From positions 1 through 54,455 of the forward strand of contig JAHIFE010000222.1 of assembly GCA_018901125.1 (NCBI GenBank): a DNA stretch of 54,455 bases, written 5' to 3'. Numbering within the stretch: position 1 is the first letter of the stretch; every line of letters starts with the position of its first letter. Source of the stretch: Pseudomonadota bacterium. Lineage in GTDB: Bacteria > Desulfobacterota > Desulfobacteria > Desulfobacterales > RPRI01. Both the position numbers and the translations under genes were made by a program. The notes below the pieces were generated by a model, which was not told where the DNA came from, made no database searches, and saw only the letters and a list, made by a program, of their open reading frames with translations. Below, piece after piece: positions 1,510 to 24,914 of the stretch.

Positions 1510-1971
1510 TCACGGTTGCTTTACGGAAAGAATCGCCTCGACAATCTTTTTATAACCGGTGCAGCGGCAAAGATTTCCCGATATGGCCTCTTTAACCTCG
1601 TCCTTTGTCGGATCAGGGTTACGGTCAAGAAAAGACTTGGCCGTCATGATCATACCCGGCGTGCAATAACCGCATTGGACTGCCCCCTTCTCATGAAAAG
1701 CCTGTTGCAAAGGATGCAGCCCCTCTCCTTTGGATAAACCTTCAATCGTTGTTATCTCCTTACCCTTGGCTGTAACCGCTAAAATAAGGCAGGAAAGCGC
1801 AGGCTTGCCATCTATCAGAACCGTGCAGGCGCAGCAGGAACCCATTCCGCAGCCTTCTTTTGTTCCGGTAAGATGAAGTTCATCCCGTAAGACTTCCAGA
1901 AGAGTCTGCTTCGGCGCTGCTGCCACCTCATAGGCTTCTCCATTCACCTTCAGTTCCACCAGTCTTTTCAT
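1510..1971 (-). CDS. Molybdenum hydroxylase small subunit, two [2Fe-2S] clusters
   Basis: Read from ATG at 1971 the protein is 153 residues, the normal size. The plant-type ferredoxin cluster ligands are C41, C46, C49 and C61. The second cluster motif is C100-x2-C103 with C135-R-C137. This is the electron-relay subunit of the xanthine dehydrogenase/CO dehydrogenase/4-hydroxybenzoyl-CoA reductase family, passing electrons between molybdenum and flavin subunits in the cytoplasm. An upstream ATG at 2001 exists but lies within the previous gene. The chosen start overlaps the preceding TAA by one base (TAATG), indicating translational coupling. It is the last gene of the three-gene operon. Confidence 0.92.
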   Translation of the reverse strand: MKRLVELKVNGEAYEVAAAPKQTLLEVLRDELHLTGTKEGCGMGSCCACTVLIDGKPALSCLILAVTAKGKEITTIEGLSKGEGLHPLQQAFHEKGAVQCGYCTPGMIMTAKSFLDRNPDPTKDEVKEAISGNLCRCTGYKKIVEAILSVKQP

Positions 1972-2972
1972 TATGCCTGCCCCCCTTTCATATCTTCCCA
2001 TGCCTTCATGCAGGCGCGCTTTACAAATACTGTTACCATCTCCTTCAAATACCAGGCCGAATAACCATGATTCGGATAAGGTGTGATTTCCTGATGCGCC
2101 TGCAGGGATGCTTCTTCTATCAGATCAGCGCTAAAATTCGCCTCCCGCAACACCGCTTCTGCCTTAATAGCCTCTACCGGAGCTGAGCCTACAGAGGTAA
2201 GCCAAATATTTGCGTCATTAATCCTTTCACCATCAACCTTCAGGTAGGCTGCAACACCCACAATTGGAAAATCGATAGACCCGCGCTCCCGGTATTTCAC
2301 GTAAGCCCCATAGCTTAAAGGCGAAGGTTTTGGCACATGTATTTCTGCTATCAGATCTTCAGAAGAAAGCGCATAAGCCTGCTCACCTTTACCGGAATAG
2401 ATTTGTGAAAGATCAAGCATTCGTTCTCCCGCAGAACCTATAACGAGCACCCGGGCTCCCAGAGCCAGTAAAACCGGCGCAACATCGCCTGAATAAACGG
2501 CAAAACACTTCTTACCCTTTTTGATCAGGTGGCAGACTGCACCGCCCCTTTTAAAGCATTTTTCCCATACAGACTGGCCAAAAAGATGGGAATGATCATA
2601 GTAAAGACATCGCGTATCCTGGCAGAGATTTCCTCCAAGGGTTGCCATATTGCGGAGCTGGACAGTTCCTACCGCATGCGCAGCCTGGGCAAGAGGAGAC
2701 AAATTACCTTTCAGAAAAGACGATTCTTCCATCTCCCCAAGAGTGACAAGAGCACCTATCTTAAGAATGTCTTTCTCCTCACTGATCGAGCGCAAACCGG
2801 AAATTCCCTGAAGATTGACAAGAGCATCAGCTACTGTCACCCTTCTTTTTAGTTTAGGCAATAAATCGGTTCCCCCGGCAAGACCCTTTGCCTTTCCTTT
2901 ATGTTTAGAGAGCAGACTAACCGCGTCCTGTAAAGTTTCCGGCTCAAAGTATTCAAAATCAGGAAGTCTCAT
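1971..2972 (-). CDS. Molybdenum hydroxylase FAD subunit with extra [4Fe-4S] loop (HcrB-like)
   Basis: The 333-residue protein has the FAD-binding CoxM/XdhB fold: AGGTDLLP at 32-39 and ATLGGNLCQDTRC at 110-122. Between about residues 122 and 156 it carries an insert with C122, C139, C147 and C156. A four-cysteine insert of this sort coordinates the additional [4Fe-4S] cluster of the beta subunit of 4-hydroxybenzoyl-CoA reductase, an enzyme that runs in the reductive direction. This favours an aromatic-CoA or similar low-potential substrate over plain xanthine oxidation, though the substrate is not proven. It overlaps the large-subunit gene by 14 bases and the small-subunit gene by one. Confidence 0.9.
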   Translation of the reverse strand: MRLPDFEYFEPETLQDAVSLLSKHKGKAKGLAGGTDLLPKLKRRVTVADALVNLQGISGLRSISEEKDILKIGALVTLGEMEESSFLKGNLSPLAQAAHAVGTVQLRNMATLGGNLCQDTRCLYYDHSHLFGQSVWEKCFKRGGAVCHLIKKGKKCFAVYSGDVAPVLLALGARVLVIGSAGERMLDLSQIYSGKGEQAYALSSEDLIAEIHVPKPSPLSYGAYVKYRERGSIDFPIVGVAAYLKVDGERINDANIWLTSVGSAPVEAIKAEAVLREANFSADLIEEASLQAHQEITPYPNHGYSAWYLKEMVTVFVKRACMKAWEDMKGGQA

Positions 2973-5292
2973 TTTGTTCTTCTCCTTTTTTCTTCTTTAG
3001 CTCTCTAAGAACTTTCTCGGGTGTTAAAGGAAGTTCTTTAAACCTTATCCCCGTAGCATTATAGATTGCGTTTAATATGGCCGGACCTATCGGTCCCACA
3101 AGCCCTTCTGCCCCCTCTTTGGCTCCATATGGCCCCCCCGGATCATTCGATTCAATAAATAAACCTGACATCTCCGGCATATCCACGGCTGTGGGAAACT
3201 TGTAATCCAAAAAGTCGGGATTTAAGGTTTTCCCGCCCTCTACAATAATGTTTTCAAACAAGGCATATCCTAAGCCCATCTGACAGGCCCCCTCCAATTG
3301 ACCTTCCACACCCAAAAGATTGATTACCCGACCACAGTCATGACTATGACATAAGTTTGTGACTACTACCCGGCCGGTATCTTTATCCACCTCTACTTCC
3401 GCTACAACCGCTCCGAATGTATAGGCGGGTGAAAAACTGCCGTATCCCGTAACCATATTAAGTTCAGCCTGTTGTTTCGGATCAGGATTCCAGACTCCTT
3501 CTCCCATAATAGTTATACCTTTATGGGCAAGCTGGCACAGCGAAACCGCTTCGATAAAAGATACCCCCTTTTCCTGAGAACCTTTGACATATATCCGCCG
3601 GTCCCGGGCTTCAAGGTCTTCAATATTTGCTTCTAACTTCTCTGCAACCGCCTTAAAAAGTTTCTGCTTAAGATCAATTGCAGCACTTTTGACGGCATTG
3701 CCGGCCTGGAAAGTACACCGGGCCGAAACCGTAATTAAATCCGGTGGACTGTGATCGGTATCAACAGATGTGATCCTGATATCTTCAACGCCTAATCCTA
3801 ATTCTTCTGCCGCAATTTGACAAAGTACTGTATCAGATCCCTGACCGATATCCGAAACACCGGATATGATGCCTGCTGTTCCATCCGGATTCGCTTTGAT
3901 GAAAATGGTGGAGGATGCGGTTTGAGGCCCCAGCAATGGAAGCTGGTTGCCGCTGAAAAGGCCCGTACTTGACATTCCAATACCTTTTAACGGCGGCAGT
4001 TTCTTATACTTCTTTTTCCATTCGGACCTTTCCTCAACTTTTTGGAGGCATTCATGCAGTCCGCCACTTGATATATAAAAACCATTAACCGTTGTGTCAC
4101 CTGTCTTTAAGCCGTTTTTCATTCTTAACTCTATTGGGTCCATGCCCAATTCTTCGGCTACCATATCCATTTGAATTTCAGAGGCAAGGTATGATTGTGG
4201 AGAAGTATATCCCCTCATGGCTGTGCAAGGGGCCTTGTTTGTATAAAATCGCTGAGATTCAAACCTGATGTTGGGCTGCCTGTAAACATGGCTTAACCAC
4301 AGAGCAGCAAGAAATGTAACTACCGGTCCGTGGGTATTATAAGCACCGCCGTCTAACATAATATTTGCTTTGCGGGCCACAATAGCGCCATCATTTTTTA
4401 CACCTATCTTAATTGCTATCTCCATGGGATGTCTTCTGCAGCTTGCAGAAAACTCCTCTTCCCGTGTGTAACAAATCCTGACAGGTTTACCGGTTATTTT
4501 CGATAACAGGGCGCAATGAAGATCCAGTGGATAAAGACCGGCTTTTCCTCCAAATCCGCCCCCCACATGGGGTTTAATCACCCTTATATTTCCCTCCGGC
4601 ATTTTCAGGACAAACGAAAGAAGTCGCTTTACAAGAAATGGAGATTGCGTCGAAGTCCATAGCGTCACTCTCCCTGAGGAATCAAAATTGGCAACGGAAT
4701 TGTGGGGCTCTAAAAAGCAATGTTGAACCAGATGGGTTGAAAACCTGTCTTCCCTGATATAATCTGATTCCCGGAAGCCTTGTTCAACATCCCCAAAATC
4801 CATTAATATGCTTGTATGTAAATTTCCCGGAAAATTATCATGAATCAGGGGAGCATCCGCCTTAATGGCCTCAGCGATATTAAAGACTGCCGGAAGTGGT
4901 TCATATTCCACATGGATATGTTTAAGGGCTTCTTCGGCAATATCTTCACTGATAGCCGCAACAGCTGCAACCTCGTCTCCCACAAACCGTACTTTATCCC
5001 GTGCCAGAAAATACCGGTCGGCACTCTCAGGAACCATTGACATCGCAAGCGCATATCTTACATCCGGAATATCACGACCGGTAATAACTGCTCTGACTCC
5101 TTTAATTCTTTCTGCTTTACTGGTATCAATGCTGATGATCCTGGCATGGGGATAAGGGCTTCTGAGAATCTTTCCGTATAACATTCCGGAAAGTACTATA
5201 TCGGTTGTATATAGAGCTTCGCCTTTGATTTTTTCTATGCCTTCAACACGGGGAATCGGCTTTCCTATAACAGAATATCCCTCTTCTTTCAT
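2959..5292 (-). CDS. Molybdenum hydroxylase large subunit, molybdopterin-binding (HcrA-like)
   Basis: At 777 residues it has the full molybdopterin-binding subunit of the xanthine dehydrogenase family. Visible are the N-terminal a/b-hammerhead domain (IGKPIPRVEGIEKIKGEALY), the cofactor motifs GGGFGGKAGLYP and AMRGYTSPQS, and the C-terminal GAKEGAEGL region with the glutamate expected to be the catalytic base. It should bind Mo-cytosine or Mo-pterin dinucleotide and carry out hydroxylation or reductive dehydroxylation. With the [4Fe-4S]-bearing flavin subunit next to it, 4-hydroxybenzoyl-CoA reductase is the nearest named relative. It is first in the operon, behind the sigma-54 promoter at 5376-5391, opposite the activator gene. 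Confidence 0.9.
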   Translation of the reverse strand: MKEEGYSVIGKPIPRVEGIEKIKGEALYTTDIVLSGMLYGKILRSPYPHARIISIDTSKAERIKGVRAVITGRDIPDVRYALAMSMVPESADRYFLARDKVRFVGDEVAAVAAISEDIAEEALKHIHVEYEPLPAVFNIAEAIKADAPLIHDNFPGNLHTSILMDFGDVEQGFRESDYIREDRFSTHLVQHCFLEPHNSVANFDSSGRVTLWTSTQSPFLVKRLLSFVLKMPEGNIRVIKPHVGGGFGGKAGLYPLDLHCALLSKITGKPVRICYTREEEFSASCRRHPMEIAIKIGVKNDGAIVARKANIMLDGGAYNTHGPVVTFLAALWLSHVYRQPNIRFESQRFYTNKAPCTAMRGYTSPQSYLASEIQMDMVAEELGMDPIELRMKNGLKTGDTTVNGFYISSGGLHECLQKVEERSEWKKKYKKLPPLKGIGMSSTGLFSGNQLPLLGPQTASSTIFIKANPDGTAGIISGVSDIGQGSDTVLCQIAAEELGLGVEDIRITSVDTDHSPPDLITVSARCTFQAGNAVKSAAIDLKQKLFKAVAEKLEANIEDLEARDRRIYVKGSQEKGVSFIEAVSLCQLAHKGITIMGEGVWNPDPKQQAELNMVTGYGSFSPAYTFGAVVAEVEVDKDTGRVVVTNLCHSHDCGRVINLLGVEGQLEGACQMGLGYALFENIIVEGGKTLNPDFLDYKFPTAVDMPEMSGLFIESNDPGGPYGAKEGAEGLVGPIGPAILNAIYNATGIRFKELPLTPEKVLRELKKKKGEEQNETS

Positions 5293-5375
5293 ATTCTCTC
5301 CTTTGGTGTTTTGCGGGCAATGGCCTTACCAAAATTATTTTTTAAGAACCAAATACACTATAACAAAGCTGATAA

Positions 5376-5391
5376 AGCAATGAGCGCGCCA
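5376..5391 (-). promoter_or_regulatory. Sigma-54 (-24/-12) promoter of the molybdenum hydroxylase operon
   Basis: On the minus strand the sequence reads TGGCGCGCTCATTGCT. The sigma-54 consensus is TGGCAC-R-N4-TTGCW; only the fifth base differs, and the GG-to-GC spacing is exact. Transcription would start near 5365, leaving a leader of about 70 bases before the ATG at 5292. The divergent neighbour encodes a sigma-54 activator with an intact GAFTGA loop, supporting the call. Confidence 0.82.
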
Positions 5392-5441
5392 ATATTTTAT
5401 AGACTAATAATTAAATATGTTATGCATATCATATTATTAAT

Positions 5442-5509
5442 ATGCCATATCCGGTATCTAATAGATTCCATATCCGGTATAAATATGTTAATAATACCAT
5501 ATATGGCAT
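5442..5509. promoter_or_regulatory. Three inverted-repeat operators (ATRCC-N6-GGYAT), probable enhancer
   Basis: Sites at 5442-5457 (ATGCCATATCCGGTAT), 5465-5480 (ATTCCATATCCGGTAT) and 5494-5509 (ATACCATATATGGCAT) share the same half-sites and spacer length; the middle one has one half-site mismatch. They lie about 50-120 bp upstream of the sigma-54 promoter, as activator-binding enhancers do. The third ends 28 bases before the activator start codon and may also let the activator control its own transcription. Binding by the neighbouring activator is inferred. Confidence 0.7.
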
Positions 5510-5536
5510 GTTATTACTTAAAGGAGGGTTATAATA

Positions 5537-7075
5537 TTGAATGACAAGGATTTTTTTCACCAGGCTACTTTGCGGATTTGCGGAAGCATAGAACTTGATT
5601 TAGTCATGGGCGATTGCTTTGACTTTCTAAAACAGTTTATGCCTGTAAATACTATATCATTTAATATATATGATCCGGATATGGGGGCTATTCAAAATGT
5701 CGCCCAAAAAACAGACAATGAAAGCATATCATTTAGCTCCCCAGTAGTTCTTTCAACTGAGGCCAAGGCCTTTCTTGAAGGGCCGAAACCTTCGAAGGTT
5801 ATAGTCGTCAAGCATCAGGAAGACCACATTATCGGACGGATGCTATCCAAGGCTTTTAAAACAAAAACATTTTCAGGAATGGTAATGTTTCTTGAAACTA
5901 AAGAAAAGCTTTTGGGCGGTGTGTCTTTGTTCTCCAGCGGCTATGACAATTATTCAAAAGAGCATGCAAGACTTCTTGCCTTACTGCACGATCCTTTTGC
6001 TGTGGCCATGTCCAATGCCTTAAGATATCATGAGGTCGTTAAGTTAAAAGACATGCTTGTTGACGATAACCGCTATCTCAGCCGGGAGCTTTATCGTATA
6101 AGCGGTGAAGAAATCATCGGCCAGAATCTTGGTTTAAAGGATGTCATGGAAATGGTTAGACAGGTAGCACCTCTGAACAGCAACGCACTCCTTTTGGGCG
6201 AAACCGGTGTGGGCAAGGAAATAATTGCCAATGCCATTCATTACTCTTCTCCCCGCAGCCGCGGACCATTTATCAAGGTCAATTGCGGGGCTATCCCGGA
6301 AAGCCTTTTAGACAGTGAACTGTTCGGACATGAAAAAGGGGCCTTTACAGGGGCGGTATCCCGCAAACGGGGCCGTTTTGAGCGTGCCCATACCGGATCT
6401 ATTTTCCTGGATGAAATCGGGGAGCTTCAGCCCCAGGCTCAGGTCAGACTCCTTCGAGTGATTCAAAACATGGAAATCGAACGGGTAGGCGGAGAAAGCC
6501 CGGTTCCTGTGGATATACGGATCATTGCCGCTTCTCACAGAAATCTCGAAGATATGGTGCGGGCTGGTAAATTTCGGGAAGATCTGTGGTACCGGCTGAA
6601 TGTGTTTCCTATTACGGTTCCGCCTCTCAGGCACAGACTTTCGGATATTTCTTCTCTGGTGAACTACTTTATAGAACGAAAATCAAGACAAATGAATTTT
6701 AAGAACCATCCGGTGCTTGCACCGGGTGTTATTGAGCGTTTGCAGTCTTACCACTGGCCCGGTAATGTGAGAGAGCTTGAAAATGCAGTGGAACGGGCTT
6801 TGATCCGAAACTGCACTGCATCTGCCGATGAGCCTCTGAGATTTGATGATTTTCCTCCTTCAGAAGTTCAAGCAACAAACCGGAAGATTTCACATCAAAA
6901 AGCGCTGCCTCTTAAACTTGATGAGGCCATGAGAGAACATATTCATAAAGTGCTTGATATGACAAATGGCAAAATTCAAGGAAAAGACGGGGCCGCAGCA
7001 ATTCTGGGCGTTCATTCCAGCACTCTCAGAAACCGTATGATCAAACTAAAAATTCCATTCAAGGATAAGAAATAA
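5537..7075 (+). CDS. Sigma-54-dependent transcriptional activator with GAF-like sensor domain
   Basis: The 512-residue protein starts at TTG 5537, with a strong AAGGAGGG site at 5521-5528. Residues about 15-165 look like a GAF sensor. An AAA+ domain follows with Walker A GETGVGKE (221-228), the sigma-54-contacting GAFTGA loop (268-273) and Walker B FLDEIG (290-295). The last 45 residues form a Fis-type helix-turn-helix (GAAAILGVHSSTLRNRM). It has no response-regulator receiver domain, so it probably senses a small molecule directly, perhaps the substrate of the divergent hydroxylase. It should bind the inverted repeats at 5442-5509 and activate the promoter at 5376-5391. Confidence 0.92.
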   Translation: MNDKDFFHQATLRICGSIELDLVMGDCFDFLKQFMPVNTISFNIYDPDMGAIQNVAQKTDNESISFSSPVVLSTEAKAFLEGPKPSKVIVVKHQEDHIIGRMLSKAFKTKTFSGMVMFLETKEKLLGGVSLFSSGYDNYSKEHARLLALLHDPFAVAMSNALRYHEVVKLKDMLVDDNRYLSRELYRISGEEIIGQNLGLKDVMEMVRQVAPLNSNALLLGETGVGKEIIANAIHYSSPRSRGPFIKVNCGAIPESLLDSELFGHEKGAFTGAVSRKRGRFERAHTGSIFLDEIGELQPQAQVRLLRVIQNMEIERVGGESPVPVDIRIIAASHRNLEDMVRAGKFREDLWYRLNVFPITVPPLRHRLSDISSLVNYFIERKSRQMNFKNHPVLAPGVIERLQSYHWPGNVRELENAVERALIRNCTASADEPLRFDDFPPSEVQATNRKISHQKALPLKLDEAMREHIHKVLDMTNGKIQGKDGAAAILGVHSSTLRNRMIKLKIPFKDKK

Positions 7076-10742: not shown

Positions 10743-12017
10743 TCAGGGTTCTACGGTAAAACGGTTTACAAGGGTTAAAGCAAAATTTTTAAAAAAAAGC
10801 AGTTGAATTGATTCTGAAGAATTATCAAGAAGCGGAGCGCTGATTACTAGAAGTATGCAATCAGTTTCTGCAACAACAGTTGCTGTTCTGGCTCGCCCGC
10901 TTATGTATGCCATTTCTCCGAAACATTCTCCCTGGCCAATAGATGCAATATTTATATTATCTTTTAATATTGATACCTTCCCGCTCATGATTATGTAAAA
11001 AGTATCATCTATTTCACCCTCGCTGACTATTATTTTGCCTTTGCGTATTTTTGATATTTTACTGACCGAAAGCAGCTCTTTTATATGTTTTTTTGTAAAA
11101 TTTTTAAAAAAGGGAAGATGGTTCATAAATCCGATAATATCATTCACTCTTTCATTACCTGGTGCTCCAGTAAACCCCCTTTGCGCCACTCTTAAGTCAT
11201 AAGCAAGCTCCATGCAACTCTGGTAACGATCATCCGGATTTTTAGCAAGGGTTTTTTGTATTATCTCTTCAAGAATTCTTGGAATCCCGGGTCTGATATT
11301 CAACACAGACTCAGGATTTTCATTGCTGATTTTATACATTATAGCAAAGTGATTATCTCCTGGAAATGCCTTAGCTCCTGCAAGAATTTCGTAGAGAACA
11401 CATCCTAAAGAAAATATGTCACTTATTGCAGAAATTCCTGAATCTTTCAATTGCTCGGGGGACATATATCTGGGTGTGCCCATCAGCCCCATATCTTGTG
11501 TTGACTCTGAAATATGGGCAATACTGAAATCGGTAATTTTGGGAACAAATGAAGAATCCATCATTATATTTGTCGGTTTTATATCTCTGTGTATGACTTT
11601 CTGTTTATGGGCATAATCAAGAGCATTACAGACATTTATTATGATTTTGATGGCTGTGTTTACAGGAAGCAGATTCTCTTTTTTGCAGTATTTTTGAAGA
11701 GTATCACCTTTAACATATTCCATAGCCATATAGCAATAGTCCCTGTAAACACCAGCATCAAATATTGAAACAATGTTGGGGTGACTAAGCCGTCCGGCAG
11801 ATTGCGCTTCAACGAAAAAATGACTTCTTTCTTTATCCGTATTGAGCTTGGAAAGTTTTATAGCTACAATTCTTTTTATATAAGGATCAAGCCCCATATA
11901 CACAACGCCGGAACCTCCCTGTCCCAGCTTGCGTATAATTTTATATCTTCCAACGGTATCAATGTTATCAAGATCTTTCCCTGGTACAGGTTTATCATCT
12001 ATTGTATCATCTTGCAT
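10743..12017 (-). CDS. Ser/Thr protein kinase with C-terminal cyclic-nucleotide-binding domain
   Basis: Taken from ATG 12017 (424 residues), which sits six bases after AAAAAGGG; ATGs at 12023 and 12068 are less well placed. A Hanks-type kinase domain fills about residues 20-275: LGQGGSGVVYMG, VAIKLSKL, catalytic HRDIKPTN, then TDFSIAHI where most kinases have DFG. Residues about 300-415 form a CRP-like cyclic-nucleotide-binding fold with GECFGEMAY followed by RARTATVVA. No transmembrane segment is seen, so it is a soluble kinase probably gated by cAMP, cGMP or a similar ligand. The DFS motif is unusual but keeps the metal-binding aspartate. Confidence 0.9.
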   Translation of the reverse strand: MQDDTIDDKPVPGKDLDNIDTVGRYKIIRKLGQGGSGVVYMGLDPYIKRIVAIKLSKLNTDKERSHFFVEAQSAGRLSHPNIVSIFDAGVYRDYCYMAMEYVKGDTLQKYCKKENLLPVNTAIKIIINVCNALDYAHKQKVIHRDIKPTNIMMDSSFVPKITDFSIAHISESTQDMGLMGTPRYMSPEQLKDSGISAISDIFSLGCVLYEILAGAKAFPGDNHFAIMYKISNENPESVLNIRPGIPRILEEIIQKTLAKNPDDRYQSCMELAYDLRVAQRGFTGAPGNERVNDIIGFMNHLPFFKNFTKKHIKELLSVSKISKIRKGKIIVSEGEIDDTFYIIMSGKVSILKDNINIASIGQGECFGEMAYISGRARTATVVAETDCILLVISAPLLDNSSESIQLLFFKNFALTLVNRFTVEP

Positions 12018-12104
12018 CAACATCCCTTTTTCTTTGATACTTTCCTGAAAAGTCCAAATTATACACAAAACAGCCGGTGTTTATTATAAGCATAATCAGC
12101 AAGT

Positions 12105-18661: not shown

Positions 18662-21600
18662 ATGTCACAGGATAAAAAATTCGGAACTTTCGGAGGAGTG
18701 TTCACTCCATCTATTTTAACAATTCTTGGTGTAATTATGTATATGCGCCTGCCCTGGATTGTTGGACAGGCCGGATTTGTTCTTACTCTCGGCATTATAC
18801 TGGTTGCACACATTGTTTCTGTATGTACCGGTCTTAGTGTTTCATCCATAGCAACTGATAAAAAAGTAAAAGCCGGCGGAACCTATTATATAATTTCCCG
18901 CAGCATGGGTCTGTCTATTGGCGGAACACTTGGTATTGCATTGTTTTTCGGCATGTCATTAAGTATTAGTTTATATTTGATAGGTTTTTCCGAAAGTTTT
19001 TTAGGGTTCTGGGGACTGCCTATTACTAAAGATACAATCCGGCTTACCGGAACTATAGCTGTTATTGCTGTAGGCTCTTTGGTTATTATCAGCACATCGC
19101 TTGCAATTAAAACACAATATTTTATCATGACTACAATTGCCTTGTCTCTTGTAACTGTTCTTTTCGGAAAAGGCGAGTTTGCACCGGCAAAACCTCTTCT
19201 CAATCCCGTGACAACAACTGTTCCTCTTATCATGCTGTTTGCCATTTACTTCCCGGCTGTTACAGGATTTGAGGCGGGCGTATCAATGTCAGGAGATCTG
19301 AAAGATCCTAAAAAATCCATTCCAGTTGGAACCATAAGCGCCATTGCATTAGGCTTGCTTGTTTACATAGGTCTTGCTGCATTTTTTGCTTTTAGAGTCA
19401 GTTCCGATCAGCTGATGAACAACCCGAATATTTTACTTGAAATTTCATTCTTTCCGCCTTTGCTTGTTGCTGGCATATGGGGAGCAACATTGTCTTCGGC
19501 CATTGGCAGTATCTTAGGAGCACCCCGCATATTACAGGCAACTTCATCTGATGGAATTACACCCCGTATTTTTGCTAAAGGTTATGGTAAAACAAATGAA
19601 CCGCGAAATGCGCTTATACTGACTTTTATAATAGCTGAAGCAGGTATTCTTATCGGTGAATTAAACCTGATAGCAAGAGTAGTATCAATGTTTTTTATCA
19701 CTACATATGGCTTCTTAAACTTGAGCTGTGCCGTGGAAAAATGGGCAAGCACTGATTTTTTACCTTCCTTTAAAATTCCGGCTTGGGTGAGTATTATAGG
19801 AGCAGCGGTATGCTTTATTTTAATGCTCGAACTGGATTTTATAGCTCTTATCGGCGCAGTAATTATTATGAGTTCCATATTTCTTTTTCTTAAGAAAAAA
19901 GAGCTGACACTGGAATCAGGAGATACCTGGGAAGGCATATGGTCTTCCATTTTAAGATACGGGCTCAACCATCTTGATCGCACTGTCAAGCAGCAGCGAA
20001 ACTGGCGTCCAAATATTATACTTTTCAGCGGCGGTACAACAGCTCGTCCCCATTTGATGGAATTTGGCCGCTGGCTGGTTCACAAACGGGGAATTATTTC
20101 CAACTTTAATTTAATCGAAAACAAGAATGCCAGACATATCATACCCAAGGTTCAGCAAGAACTTGAAGAAAAGGAATCAGATTTTTCAGGAATATTTACA
20201 AGGCACATGGAAGTAAACGATATCTATGAAGGAATGGAAACCGTAACAAAAGTGTATGGCTTTGCCGGTATTGAGCCTAATTCAGTCATGCTCGGATGGG
20301 CAAGAACAAGCAAGCAACCTGAAAAGTTCGCCCAATTAATCGAAAACTTTAAAAAGCTTGATTATAATATATTACTTCTGGATTACCATTATGAAAGAGG
20401 GTTTGGATCGCATAAAATAATAGATATATGGTGGGGCGGCGGCAGCAATTCGTTATCTTTGGGGCTTACATTGATCAAGTTTTTGAAAATGTCTGAAGAC
20501 TGGGAAGAATCGCATGCCAGGATCTTTATTGTAACTGATGGCAGCTCGTTGAACAACATAATATATAAAACCGTAAATAATGCAATTGAAGAATATAGAA
20601 TTGAAGCCAGTGTAAAAATAATTAACAACAATATCGACCAAAGTTCAGTCAATGAAATCATAATTAAAGAATCTCAGGATTCGGATCTTGTAATACTTGG
20701 ATTGAGGGAAGTCGAAAAGAAAAATGTTGCACAATATATATCGGAAACTGACAGCATAATTAAAACATTAGGAACCGTGGTACTGATTCAAGCTTCTTCG
20801 TTTTTTAAACCTATTAATACCGGGCTTGAAAGAGCTGAGAAAATTAAACAAACTAAAATTATTCCTGATAGTAAGATCGGGTATGAAAATCTTTTGTCCG
20901 CACTGATTTTACCAAAACATGAATTACTTGCAGATAGCATGAAGGTTATCAACAAAAAACTGGAAGAAGCTTTTGCCTGTTATCAACAGGGTTCACTCAA
21001 GATAATTCATGCTGAAAATCTGTTGTTATTAAAAGAAATTGAAAAACTTATAGAAAGAAATTTTAATGATATAAAAGAAGTTTTTCCGGATAATGGATCT
21101 TTGGAAGTACAACTCATCAGAAAAACTTTGGCACATGCAAACAGCAACTATCTTTTCAACTCAAATCGGATTATTCAAACTTTTCAAAAAACAACGCTTT
21201 CAGAGCAAAAAGACAATTTATCAGCAGATCTTCAGTCACTTCTTTTAGAACTTCAAAAAATGCATACCGATAGTTTATCAGAATTGATTATATTTGTTAA
21301 ACCTGAACAAACAGATGATATTTCGAACCGGACTTCAATATGGGAGAAAATTAAATTAAAAAGCGGCAATAAAGCAATCCGGCGTAAAATCAGGATGCAG
21401 TTATTTACCCATACTTTGATAAAGCAAATTGAACAGGATGTTGTTTATAAGCATCTGCAGGATTTTGGATTACAAAACTACCGTCTGACATCAGATTTAC
21501 AAAAATTGTTTACATCGGTATCAGACAGTTTCCAAGCTATAGGAACGGATATAGAAAAGGATAGTATAGATGAAACAATATTTGATCAGGAAAGAATAAA

Positions 21601-23782
21601 AATAAAAGAGAGGATTTTCTCGGTTTTTGATAAGTGTCAAAAAGATTATCAACGCTCATCGGATGAGCTGCAGAAAAACCTTTACCAGCTTATACAATCG
21701 ATGTCCAATGATCTGGAAAGCGCAAATATCAATCGCCTTGTAAAAAAGAAGAATAAAATAATTAACAAAACATGGCCGGCTAATACACAAATAACGCAAA
21801 TCCCTGATGCCTGGTTTAATAATCAACGATTAATGGTAAATTTATTAATTGAGGATTTAATACTTAAAAATTTTCAAAACCGCATTAAAACTATTCTGGA
21901 GCGATTTATTAGCGGAATACAACTAAGCATAGAAAACAACTATTCAGATCGGCTCGACAAACTATCGTCAAACCTGGAATCCGTTAATTCAAATGGAAAA
22001 AAGAATATAAGCTGGCCTGCTTTTTATCAGGAGGCAGTTAACACTGAGGCACTGTTTCATGAGCTTTTAAAAGATATAAAAGTGGCAGAAGAGGAATTGC
22101 CCGAAACAATAGAGCTTATGGCTGAAGAGTCGTTTCAGAATATTGAGCAGGATCAGTTTGCCGATGTTTTAATTCTAAATATCAATTTACTTCGCTATGC
22201 CGGTTTTCTTATCGAAACAGAACTTATCGATCCGCTTCAAAGACATGTATCTGAGCTTTCTGTCAGTCTTCAGAAAACAAATGATGTGGTACTGGATATA
22301 GTGAGATTTACAAATCATAATCTGTCGCTTTCCTCCGATGAAAACATGAAGGAAGATAAGGGTTCACTATCTGTTATCATAAAAAGCGGCCTTAACAGGA
22401 TAAGCGCTGAAAAAACCAATATATCAAAACTTCAGCAAAATCTTCAGATTGAGTTTAAACGCCTGATGTGCGCTACATTTGAAAAAATGAATCCTTATTT
22501 AATTTCAAAGTCTGCCGGAGAATTAAAACAAACTATCCGCACCAGAGAAAGCCGCAAGATATTTACACAAGCAGTAAAAATTTCCGATTGGTTGAAAACA
22601 AAGGGTAAAAATCTTATAGTCAGGCTTATATATCAAAAAAGCGAGAGTATTTTATTTGCTAAAAAATTAAGCAGGGTTTCCGGGGCTTATCAGACTGAAA
22701 CAGGGTATCTGCTTGAAATGGTAAAACTACTATCTCCAGATAGTGAAATAAACCGCATGCTGCCTTTCTATTACAAACAATTATTTATTGGCAACCAGAT
22801 AATCTGCAAGGAATTTCTTATCGAACGGGAATATGAAATAGGCCTTGCTTACAAAGCTGTTGATATGTATCGTCAGGGATATAAGGGAGCACTGCTTGTT
22901 CTTGGAGATCGCCACTCCGGCAAATCCACCCTTTCCCGCTGCATAACAAACAAATATTTCGACCGCAACAAAACTTTCCAGGTATTTCCACCTGAAGGTG
23001 GAAGTATCGATCCGGATGAATTCAAGAATCGCTTAACAGGCACACTAAAGCAAAACGGGGATTATGATAATATATTTAATAACCTTCCACAAAACAGCGT
23101 AATTATCTTTCATGATATGGAGCTGTGGTGGGAGCGCAGCAGTAAAGGATTTGCCGTTATAGAAGATATGATCGACCTGATATGCAATTATAGCGATAAA
23201 TGCTTTTTTATTGTAAATGCAGGAACACACAGCTTCAAATTTATTAACCGGCTAAAACCCATTGAGAATACATTTATCAGCGCCATAGAGTGCCAGCCCT
23301 TTGACTCTGAAGAACTACAACAGGCAACACTGCTCAGGCACCGTTCAACAGGTTTAAAGTTTCAATTTGGCAAGCAAAATGAAGATTCCATCTCGAATTT
23401 TCGCCTTGCCAGATTATTTAATAATTATTTCGATATTTCAAATGGCAATATAGGCCAGGCCATACATTATTGGATCAGTAATATTGTGAAGGTAAATCCT
23501 CTTCTCATAGACATCAGAACTCCGATTATCGCAAATAATCAGGCCCTGAAAAAATTGAACACTGACTGGCTGATTATTCTTCAACAATTCATGTTGCACA
23601 AACACCTTACCTCTAAACGGATGGAGCAGCTTCTTGGTATCGAAAAAAACGAAACGGGGCTTATGATTCAATCACTTATGCGCAGCGGACTTATTCAGGA
23701 AATTCAACCTGAAATAATGCAAATCAGCCCTTATATTCAACCTTTGATTACTAAATATTTAGACGAAATGGATCTGCTATGA
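18662..23782 (+). CDS. Cation-chloride-cotransporter-like permease fused to a P-loop NTPase
   Basis: A single 1706-residue frame. Residues 1-420 are a twelve-helix APC-superfamily transporter closest in style to SLC12 cotransporters: FGTFGGVFTPSILTILGV, GGTYYIISRSMG, ATSSDGITPR. Residues about 470-700 resemble the soluble SLC12 C-terminal/Usp-like domain (DSDLVILGLREV). Residues 750-1390 are long, mostly helical and likely coiled coil. A P-loop NTPase follows, with Walker A GDRHSGKST (1415-1423), Walker B VIIFHDME (about 1480), an Orc/TniB-like GNIGQAIHYW and a winged-helix-like end. Ordinary SLC12 proteins are far shorter and lack the ATPase. The next gene, an MscS-like channel, overlaps by 4 bases, pointing to a joint osmotic or ion-homeostasis role. 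Confidence 0.85.
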   Translation: MSQDKKFGTFGGVFTPSILTILGVIMYMRLPWIVGQAGFVLTLGIILVAHIVSVCTGLSVSSIATDKKVKAGGTYYIISRSMGLSIGGTLGIALFFGMSLSISLYLIGFSESFLGFWGLPITKDTIRLTGTIAVIAVGSLVIISTSLAIKTQYFIMTTIALSLVTVLFGKGEFAPAKPLLNPVTTTVPLIMLFAIYFPAVTGFEAGVSMSGDLKDPKKSIPVGTISAIALGLLVYIGLAAFFAFRVSSDQLMNNPNILLEISFFPPLLVAGIWGATLSSAIGSILGAPRILQATSSDGITPRIFAKGYGKTNEPRNALILTFIIAEAGILIGELNLIARVVSMFFITTYGFLNLSCAVEKWASTDFLPSFKIPAWVSIIGAAVCFILMLELDFIALIGAVIIMSSIFLFLKKKELTLESGDTWEGIWSSILRYGLNHLDRTVKQQRNWRPNIILFSGGTTARPHLMEFGRWLVHKRGIISNFNLIENKNARHIIPKVQQELEEKESDFSGIFTRHMEVNDIYEGMETVTKVYGFAGIEPNSVMLGWARTSKQPEKFAQLIENFKKLDYNILLLDYHYERGFGSHKIIDIWWGGGSNSLSLGLTLIKFLKMSEDWEESHARIFIVTDGSSLNNIIYKTVNNAIEEYRIEASVKIINNNIDQSSVNEIIIKESQDSDLVILGLREVEKKNVAQYISETDSIIKTLGTVVLIQASSFFKPINTGLERAEKIKQTKIIPDSKIGYENLLSALILPKHELLADSMKVINKKLEEAFACYQQGSLKIIHAENLLLLKEIEKLIERNFNDIKEVFPDNGSLEVQLIRKTLAHANSNYLFNSNRIIQTFQKTTLSEQKDNLSADLQSLLLELQKMHTDSLSELIIFVKPEQTDDISNRTSIWEKIKLKSGNKAIRRKIRMQLFTHTLIKQIEQDVVYKHLQDFGLQNYRLTSDLQKLFTSVSDSFQAIGTDIEKDSIDETIFDQERIKIKERIFSVFDKCQKDYQRSSDELQKNLYQLIQSMSNDLESANINRLVKKKNKIINKTWPANTQITQIPDAWFNNQRLMVNLLIEDLILKNFQNRIKTILERFISGIQLSIENNYSDRLDKLSSNLESVNSNGKKNISWPAFYQEAVNTEALFHELLKDIKVAEEELPETIELMAEESFQNIEQDQFADVLILNINLLRYAGFLIETELIDPLQRHVSELSVSLQKTNDVVLDIVRFTNHNLSLSSDENMKEDKGSLSVIIKSGLNRISAEKTNISKLQQNLQIEFKRLMCATFEKMNPYLISKSAGELKQTIRTRESRKIFTQAVKISDWLKTKGKNLIVRLIYQKSESILFAKKLSRVSGAYQTETGYLLEMVKLLSPDSEINRMLPFYYKQLFIGNQIICKEFLIEREYEIGLAYKAVDMYRQGYKGALLVLGDRHSGKSTLSRCITNKYFDRNKTFQVFPPEGGSIDPDEFKNRLTGTLKQNGDYDNIFNNLPQNSVIIFHDMELWWERSSKGFAVIEDMIDLICNYSDKCFFIVNAGTHSFKFINRLKPIENTFISAIECQPFDSEELQQATLLRHRSTGLKFQFGKQNEDSISNFRLARLFNNYFDISNGNIGQAIHYWISNIVKVNPLLIDIRTPIIANNQALKKLNTDWLIILQQFMLHKHLTSKRMEQLLGIEKNETGLMIQSLMRSGLIQEIQPEIMQISPYIQPLITKYLDEMDLL

Positions 23783-24501
23783 ATCAGCTATTAAATTTTG
23801 AATTTTCAGGATTTTCATTTCTTATGGTTCTTATGCTCGGGATATTAATATTCTTTATATTAAGGATCATAAACCAAACAGTTGTCCCAAAGATTGAAAA
23901 GAACCGGATAAAACAACTTTTTCAGGTTCTTGAAATACTAATATGGGTGGTTTACGGATTCTGGGGTCTTCATGTGACTTTAAAAGACAGCAACTATTAC
24001 ATGTTGGCCATATTAACCGTATCCGCAGTTATAGTAATCTGTCTTGGCTGGTTTATGGCCAGAGATCTTATCGCAGGCCTTGTACTCAGATTCGGCGATA
24101 ATTATCAACCTGGCCAGAATATCATATTAAATGAAATTAAAGGTTCAATTGTTAAAGCTGGTTATCTGGATTTATTTATATCCGTAGAAAATGGTGATAT
24201 TGTTAAAATTCCCTACAGCAAAATCAGTTCTGCCATCCATTATAAAGTAAAACACCGGGATAAAACAACTCAACACCGCTTTGAAATTGAAACAAAAAAG
24301 AACCCATTTTTGGAAGAAACCCGGAACCGTATAAAAAATGCGATTATGCTCTCAACAGGCGCAAGCATTAAAATGGAACCACAGATAAGCCTGATGGATC
24401 ATCCGGACGAAAATATATGGAAATTCGAAGTGGTAGCATATGCATTAAGCCCTGAATATTTCCAGTTAATTGAGCGTAATGCAAAAAATGCGGTCAGCTG
24501 A
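23779..24501 (+). CDS. MscS-like small mechanosensitive channel protein
   Basis: The 240-residue protein has three or four N-terminal membrane segments (about residues 12-32, 48-66, 72-93) and then an MscS-type beta domain: RDLIAGLVLRFGDNYQPGQNI followed by GSIVKAGYLDLFISVENGDIVKIPYSKI. The pore-lining TM3 is less glycine- and alanine-rich than in E. coli MscS, so gating may differ. Its ATG overlaps the stop of the large transporter-NTPase gene (ATGA), so the two are almost certainly translationally coupled and may act together in ion or osmotic control. Confidence 0.85.
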   Translation: MNQLLNFEFSGFSFLMVLMLGILIFFILRIINQTVVPKIEKNRIKQLFQVLEILIWVVYGFWGLHVTLKDSNYYMLAILTVSAVIVICLGWFMARDLIAGLVLRFGDNYQPGQNIILNEIKGSIVKAGYLDLFISVENGDIVKIPYSKISSAIHYKVKHRDKTTQHRFEIETKKNPFLEETRNRIKNAIMLSTGASIKMEPQISLMDHPDENIWKFEVVAYALSPEYFQLIERNAKNAVS

Positions 24502-24545: not shown

Positions 24546-24914
24546 ATGGCTATGAATACTTATAATAAAGATGTCGGTTTGGTTTACTCCACCGAGTTTG
24601 GCAAAATGTGCCCAGCTTGCAATAAACCAGCGATGAAATGCATTTGCCGGAAACAACAATCGATTCCTAAATGCGATGGCATTGTCAGGTTAATGAGAGA
24701 AACTAAGGGGCGCAAAGGAAAAGGCGTAACCTTGATAACCGGCTTATCATTAGATGATGATGCCCTGAAAAATATTACAAAAGCCCTCAAACAAAAGTGC
24801 GGAAGCGGGGGCAGTGTAAAAAATGGAGTAATTGAAATTCAGGGTGACCACAGGGATGTGCTGGAACAAGAATTAAGCATGCTTGGCTACAAAGTTAAAC
24901 TTGCTGGAGGATGA
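24546..24914 (+). CDS. yciH: YciH/SUI1-family translation factor
   Basis: The 122-residue protein carries an N-terminal cysteine set (CPACNKPAMKCICR, residues 21-34), possibly a small metal-binding knuckle, and a C-terminal SUI1/eIF1 domain with RETKGRKGKGVTLITGL and the closing GDHRDVLEQELSMLGYKVK. YciH is the bacterial eIF1 homologue, implicated in start-site fidelity on the 30S ribosome. ATGs at 24546 and 24552 are both possible starts. It lies just before a pseudouridine synthase gene on the same strand. Confidence 0.9.
   Translation: MAMNTYNKDVGLVYSTEFGKMCPACNKPAMKCICRKQQSIPKCDGIVRLMRETKGRKGKGVTLITGLSLDDDALKNITKALKQKCGSGGSVKNGVIEIQGDHRDVLEQELSMLGYKVKLAGG

Follow-up and report, generated by a model that had tools for sequence, protein, structure and literature searches.

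An SLC12-like transporter fused to an AAA+ NTPase beside an MscS-like gene: a candidate ion-homeostasis machine in bacteria

What would a cell do with an SLC12-like ion transporter that carries a nucleoside triphosphatase (NTPase) at its far end, and why should a gene for an MscS-like membrane protein follow it? The question is raised by a 54,455-nucleotide (nt) stretch of DNA from a Pseudomonadota bacterium of the Desulfobacterales (assembly GCA_018901125.1, contig JAHIFE010000222.1, positions 1 to 54,455), referred to here as the window. An earlier note, made by eye on this DNA, described a transporter-linker-NTPase-winged-helix fusion and an MscS-like gene overlapping its stop by four bases. 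Both descriptions hold. The fusion is real, as it is a single open reading frame (ORF) of 1706 amino acids (aa) and the same order of parts is found in many lineages. The letters ATGA at 23779-23782 are common to the fusion stop and the MscS-like start, giving a 4-nt overlap. The answer proposed here, tentatively and with slightly less than even confidence, is that the two genes make up one ion-homeostasis machine, in which an AAA+ relay would couple an MscS-type membrane sensor to an ion transporter. The parts of the locus, in window positions, are as follows:

18662-23782, plus strand: SLC12-linker-AAA+-winged-helix fusion gene, 1706 aa (ORF; homologues of the same order).
18662-19900, plus strand: membrane domain of the SLC12-like transporter, residues 1-413 (Pfam, TIGR00930 and PDB matches; 10 hydropathy peaks).
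19922-20806, plus strand: SLC12 C-terminal cytosolic domain, about residues 421-715 (PDB KCC/NKCC alignments to about 705).
20810-22681, plus strand: poorly conserved linker, about residues 717-1340, boundaries approximate (conservation profile).
22724-23536, plus strand: predicted AAA+ NTPase domain with lid, about residues 1355-1625 (structure model; ORC/Cdc6, RuvB and TnsC matches).
22904-22927, plus strand: Walker A, GDRHSGKS, residues 1415-1422 (alignment of fusions).
23096-23122, plus strand: degenerate Walker B region, SVIIFHDME, residues 1479-1487, followed by LWW (alignment of fusions).
23549-23779, plus strand: predicted C-terminal winged helix, about residues 1630-1706 (structure model; fold matches).
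23779-24501, plus strand: MscS-like membrane protein gene, 240 aa (PF00924, structure model and fold matches).
23992-24096, plus strand: predicted third helix of the MscS-like protein, the transmembrane helix 3 (TM3) equivalent, residues 72-106, its Gly/Ala packing lost and its conserved N replaced by D (model; 92-sequence alignment).
24061-24231, plus strand: MscS beta-domain (PF00924), residues 95-151 of the MscS-like protein (Pfam match).

The arrangement recurs. Among 59 relatives, two carry the C-terminal extension in fused form, G005 (74% identity, of the same genus) and G021 (30%, of the same order), each with an MscS-like ORF next. A scan of a species-genome collection with two peptide patterns found 17 fusion loci, whose titles name Bacteroidales, other Bacteroidetes, Flavobacteriales, Cytophagales, Flammeovirgaceae, Rhodothermia, Ignavibacterium and a ‘Proteobacteria’ bacterium, which is G021 again; the patterns favour close relatives, so this number is a lower bound. 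Two further loci (L107 and L108) came from a sample of 395 genomes of one phylum (that of G462). The earlier note asked whether the MscS-like gene always follows the fusion: such an ORF lies directly downstream in all 20 distinct fusion loci readable past the stop, the window and G005 included. These ORFs encode 214-252 aa, and the gap ranges from -4 to +15 nt, being exactly -4 in half of them (10/20). L033, a duplicate of L013, and L042, which ends at residue ~1226 near a contig end, were dropped before counting; L046 and L047 begin within the linker, with the SLC12 part out of view. An assembly or sequencing fusion, which the earlier note had named as a possible refutation, is ruled out, since homologues from many lineages have their parts arranged alike. 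In a scan of the phylum around the window, 14 genomes besides that of the window matched, with a strong match in G341 only; the weaker, partial matches (E 1e-8 to 1e-6) look like unrelated AAA proteins.

Some of these loci show features of their own. At L041:8001-13084, in a Cyclobacteriaceae metagenome-assembled genome, the fusion is broken in two by what looks like a frameshift, which may be an assembly error or real. In G005 an ordinary MscS gene (L012:11396-12316, minus strand; PF00924 E=1.7e-14) lies convergent, just past the fusion’s own MscS-like gene. The single genome of G021 (L013, L014) contains an SLC12 fusion that is followed by its MscS gene and, in addition, a free NTPase that is preceded by a canonical MscS.

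The permease part resembles a cation-chloride cotransporter. The Pfam model AA_permease matches residues 13-413 (E=1.4e-44), and the K-Cl cotransporter model TIGR00930 matches residues 3-557 (E=1.3e-107) at 361 bits, below the model cut-off of 953. Solved KCC and NKCC structures in the PDB align over residues 5-705, covering both the membrane and the cytosolic C-terminal domain. As these alignments extend to ~705, the transporter is complete with its C-terminal domain, and ~1000 residues come after it. In the alignment with NKCC1, residues Y105, P198 and T201 and residues A275, S278 and S279 are identical to their counterparts, which we take to belong to the K+ site and the Na+ site of NKCC1, respectively. 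NKCC1 N298 corresponds to T20 in the fusion, a mismatch. The permease is cation-chloride-cotransporter-like; from site residues that are mostly kept, with N298 giving way to T20, its substrate is probably of the Na+/K+/Cl- type.

Beyond the transporter lies the linker (~717-1340), the stretch that the earlier note took for about 600 helical residues. It is the least conserved part of the fusion, and its hidden Markov model (HMM) gives weak matches in some free NTPase proteins. The NTPase part itself has only sub-threshold Pfam matches (AAA_16, E=0.007; AAA_22, E=0.018). A structure model of residues 1347-1706, built from 18 homologues, is a confident AAA+ core with lid and winged helix (mean predicted local distance difference test score, pLDDT, 92.1; predicted template-modelling score, pTM, 0.90), in agreement with the winged-helix-like end described earlier. 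The top rows from Foldseek and VIA-align are ORC/Cdc6-type AAA+ proteins, led by 1w5t (Z 15.3, root-mean-square deviation 5.4, 321 residues aligned), whose alignment takes in the winged helix. TnsC, NSF (Z 14.7) and clamp loaders are nearly tied with them, and RuvB is among the Foldseek rows; sequence identity in these fold matches is only 9-17%. STAND family models gave no match in the window protein, and related proteins gave only weak nSTAND1 and nSTAND3 matches. The Walker A and B motifs reported by the earlier note fared differently. In Walker A the G, G and K are invariant across all 18 aligned fusions, and nucleotide binding by the NTPase is likely. Walker B is degenerate: the residue preceding D is H or N in 13/18 and D or E in 5/18, and the D itself is replaced by N in 3/18; the window sequence is VIIFHDMELWW.

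Is the MscS-like neighbour tied to the SLC12 transporter or to the NTPase? The two unfused bacterial SLC12 homologues examined, from Picosynechococcus and Peptoclostridium (710 and 732 aa by annotation), have no NTPase and neither an MscS nor an AAA neighbour, so that SLC12 as the cause of the MscS adjacency is unsupported. Separate NTPase genes do exist, mostly of ~1000 aa, and they adjoin MscS genes. The earlier note had counted separate C-terminal genes in an unrelated context as evidence against it; the C-terminal part does occur separately, yet here too its neighbour is an MscS gene. Examples are G017, Novosphingobium plasmid pLA3, strain PP1Y and the second copy in G021, where the MscS gene lies upstream; on pLA3 the annotation reads AAA family ATPase, then mechanosensitive ion channel family protein. 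Among the plasmid matches listed were only relatives of the SLC12 part (the best 10 of 53 records) and two Novosphingobium NTPases.

A profile of the fusion NTPase matched 75 of the 395 sampled genomes; with such a share, the wider module is common. Two batches of regions were fetched, from all 75 of these genomes and from a few others, one region per genome except for G462, G448 and G533, which gave more. In the first batch (L099-L166) an MscS-like ORF on the same strand, identified by a purpose-built HMM, adjoins the NTPase at 66 of the 68 loci; two of these 66 are SLC12 fusions and are also counted among the 20 fusion loci. The second batch (L169-L182) held mostly the weakest matches: the NTPase was found by HMM in 13 of 14 regions, and nine of the 13 have an MscS-like neighbour. 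One of the 75 profile-matched genomes, G707, had no NTPase by the purpose-built HMM. Taken together, an MscS-like neighbour is present at 75 of 81 NTPase loci. Four of the six misses (L104, L105, L175 and L178) have a contig end on a possible side of the MscS gene; the other two, L169 and L174, carry in the MscS slot a membrane ORF of 185-187 aa with no detectable beta-domain. The MscS gene is upstream of the NTPase in some loci (L160, L161, L163, L166, L172, L173, L176, L177, L179, L180 and L181). L163 was scored as adjacent, its over-extended NTPase ORF overlapping the MscS ORF in another frame, and L103 and L104, both found in one genome, are perhaps pieces of one gene. Because the window genome has only six PF00924 matches in 4.45 Mb, chance adjacency is estimated to be of the order of 0.1-0.2%, assuming about one gene per kb.

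Does the MscS-like protein resemble a working channel? The window protein passes PF00924 narrowly (22.7 bits, cut-off 20.2), and five of six other SLC12-fusion partners tested also pass. Its single-chain model (pLDDT 79.6, pTM 0.39) has three helices, a beta-domain and an alpha/beta domain. The top PDB matches are MscS, YnaI, YbiO, MscK and MSL1, with E-values down to 3e-13 and low single-chain TM-scores of 0.3-0.4. In an alignment of 92 MscS proteins, the pore helix was scored by the number of G, A or S residues in five columns where the third helix packs, which we take to be E. coli MscS positions 101, 102, 104, 106 and 108. The partners of free NTPases average 4.85 small residues out of 5, and 60/61 score 4 or 5; the sole low row, L141 (score 1), has a separate antiporter gene. 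The partners of SLC12 fusions average 1.25/5 (range 0-3, n=20), that of the window scoring 1/5. All five antiporter-fusion partners score 1/5 and the Trk-type partner 2/5. The conserved N of the third helix, N117 of E. coli MscS, is D in 19/20 and E in 1/20 of the SLC12-fusion partners. A three-residue deletion in the pore helix, an impression from six sequences, was dropped, as the 92-sequence alignment is gapless there. Osmotic release through the MscS-like protein, part of the earlier proposal, is thus doubtful, since the pore helix of the transporter-coupled partners is without the canonical packing residues.

The NTPase-MscS module is also found with other ion transporters. In L131, L136 and L146 a Na+/H+ exchanger domain (PF00999, E 1e-18 to 4e-21) is N-terminal on the NTPase protein; the N-terminus of L164 has no Pfam match, yet it is 34% identical to that of L131 over 391 residues, and the N-terminus of L170 also gave no Pfam match. 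These five loci and L148 share a four-gene order: a membrane protein of ~414 aa (two were tested and gave no Pfam match), the long fusion, the MscS-like ORF and a downstream ORF, which is TrkH by Pfam in all four tested (L131, L136, L164 and L170). In L170 a TrkA gene is next in line after the cluster. The order in L165 is TrkA, TrkH, a 10-TM NTPase protein and MscS. A further order, of NTPase, small membrane protein and separate PF00999 gene, is found in L141, L169, L171 and L174; the small protein is MscS-like by HMM in L141 and L171, and that of L169 and L174 is possibly the end point of MscS degeneration. In L169 and L174, at about 1870-7075, the full order is an AI-2E family transporter gene (tested by Pfam in L169), the NTPase, the 185-187-aa membrane protein and the PF00999 antiporter.

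Two trees of the NTPase were built, the first leaving out five fragmentary rows and the second ten fragmentary or near-identical older rows, with L173 not added owing to its over-extended NTPase ORF. In both, the SLC12 fusions group together (Shimodaira-Hasegawa-like approximate likelihood-ratio test, SH-aLRT, 84 and 94), and the rows with a separate antiporter gene attach to them at 99. A second group holds the antiporter fusions (SH-aLRT 98 and 97); like the Trk type, it falls among the free NTPases. Constraining all transporter-coupled rows together costs 6.5 log units (approximately unbiased test, p=0.18). The trees therefore prefer two origins of transporter coupling, though a single origin is not rejected. 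The SLC12 and antiporter fusions themselves must be separate events, judging by the different families to which their transporter parts belong. A tree of the MscS partners had poor support and long branches and was set aside.

How might these parts work together? In the proposed machine, the ORC/Cdc6-type AAA+ NTPase with its winged helix would be the shared coupling part and the MscS-family protein its constant partner. In the lineage of the window this NTPase would act fused in cis to the cation-chloride-cotransporter-like permease. The transporter-coupled MscS-like protein would serve mainly as a membrane-tension or osmotic sensor, or as a scaffold, and not as a release valve. The nucleotide state of the NTPase may be relayed via the linker and the SLC12 C-terminal domain, switching ion transport on or off. 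For the free pairs, the proposal is that the NTPase acts on a canonical MscS pore. Plant MSL10 is reported also to have a nonconducting function (PMC6261518), a precedent for such a role in an MscS relative. The foundation of this proposal, read from the genes, is a recurring architecture with a constant MscS-like partner, together with the presence of the NTPase/MscS module with an antiporter, with TrkH and with TrkA-TrkH elsewhere; from these we infer protein contact, the direction of control, tension sensing and loss of conduction. An ATP-dependent switch on ion flux, as the earlier note suggested, remains the best reading, given that the same NTPase is fused to Na+/H+ antiporters near TrkH, but an ATPase cycle is not established. 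A bolder version, in which the AAA+/MscS module was repeatedly joined to SLC12, CPA-type (cation:proton) antiporters and Trk, and the MscS pore turned into a tension sensor driving the transporter via the NTPase, seems rather unlikely.

Several observations weigh against the proposed machine. Gene adjacency is no demonstration of a physical complex. With Walker B degenerate, ATP hydrolysis by the NTPase is not certain. At the same packing columns, five further MscS proteins encoded by the window genome reach just 2-5/5 (mean 3.2), so that the score is no strict test of a pore. MSL10 is reported to have bulky pore-helix residues and yet to conduct (PMC6261518); together with the scores from the window genome, this means that the loss of small residues is no proof of a closed pore. 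L099 has a canonical MscS (4/5) despite PF00999 antiporter genes on both sides, which counts against a strict rule tying a transporter to the pore change. Most of the ~1000-aa free pairs have, by eye, no obvious transporter alongside. As a single origin of coupling is not rejected, the link between coupling and pore change may reflect one event.

In a different account, the one proposed by the earlier note, the MscS-like protein is a working channel gated by the NTPase, with SLC12 uptake and MscS release reciprocally controlled by one switch. The canonical pore helix of nearly all free-NTPase partners (60/61), the passing of the PF00924 cut-off by the window protein and most other SLC12 partners tested, and conduction by MSL10 despite its bulky residues (PMC6261518) speak for it. 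It has to contend with the score of at most 3/5 in all 20 SLC12-type and five antiporter-type partners, the change of N to D or E in the former, and the slot protein of L169 and L174 with its lack of a detectable beta-domain; on balance we regard it as unlikely. Co-transcription only, a common stress response of the two genes without physical or allosteric coupling, would fit gene data that do not demonstrate contact of the two proteins. However, the fusion of transporter to NTPase, the near-invariant adjacency across lineages and the covariation of MscS pore type with transporter presence render it improbable.

The AAA+ part could also be an assembly or quality-control factor for a membrane complex rather than a signalling switch. 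An AAA+ fold with a nearly tied NSF match, and a constant pairing compatible with a dedicated factor, agree with this. Covalent fusion to a transporter would be odd for a catalytic chaperone, Walker B is degenerate, and the best fold matches are ORC/Cdc6-type initiators, which act as switches; this role, too, is improbable. Lastly, there are defence systems that pair an NTPase sensor with a membrane effector, and the weak STAND-type matches in related proteins would suit a defence or cell-suicide device in which an NTPase sensor triggers membrane leakage on infection. PADLOC, which covers known defence protein models only and would miss systems outside its library, found nothing for the window pair or for one MscS partner, and its matches to two free NTPases were only at chance level (best E 0.015). 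The coupling with SLC12, antiporter and Trk genes is more in keeping with ion homeostasis, and such a device is very improbable.

How does the proposed machine compare with known systems? The window protein is like the SLC12 cation-chloride cotransporters (KCC, NKCC, NCC and archaeal maCCC) in its membrane and C-terminal domains, and differs from them by the further residues with the AAA+ NTPase and by the constant MscS-like neighbour. Archaeal maCCC is mentioned as a cation-chloride cotransporter in PMC4301019. The window partner shares its predicted helices, beta-domain and alpha/beta domain with the MscS family (E. coli MscS, YnaI, MscK, plant MSLs), whereas the SLC12 partners lack small-residue pore packing, have D or E for the conserved N in 20/20 and have a constant NTPase neighbour. 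The NTPase is like ORC/Cdc6 initiators, TnsC, RuvB and the archaeal ATPase 2QEN in its AAA+ core, lid and winged helix, and unlike them in its attachment to a transporter, its low identity and its degenerate Walker B. CPA antiporters, TrkH/TrkA and MscS proteins are all involved in K+ and osmotic balance. The NTPase-MscS module occurs with PF00999, TrkH and TrkA genes, as a likeness to Kef-type CPA antiporters and Trk; we know of no described Kef or Trk system that has an AAA+ NTPase of ORC type or an MscS-like partner of its own. A search of the open-access literature, with subscription papers and preprints outside its scope, found no SLC12, antiporter or MscS protein described with such an NTPase. 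To our knowledge, no known system combines one NTPase-MscS module with several ion transporters. Each part belongs to a known family; what seems new is the arrangement.

Two other genes of the window may be recorded. A SUI1-family translation factor gene lies at 24546-24914 on the same strand, 44 nt past the end of the MscS-like gene. The ORF at 10743-12068 on the minus strand is protein kinase-like, with a C-terminal cyclic-nucleotide-binding domain assigned by eye only.

Animal SLC12 transporters receive volume-sensing control from separate kinases. If the bolder version is true, the pair described here would be a bacterial counterpart of that control, largely in one chain, and the class of machines to which it belongs would be widespread and undescribed. 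The finding points to an uncharacterised machine for the control of cell salt or volume.

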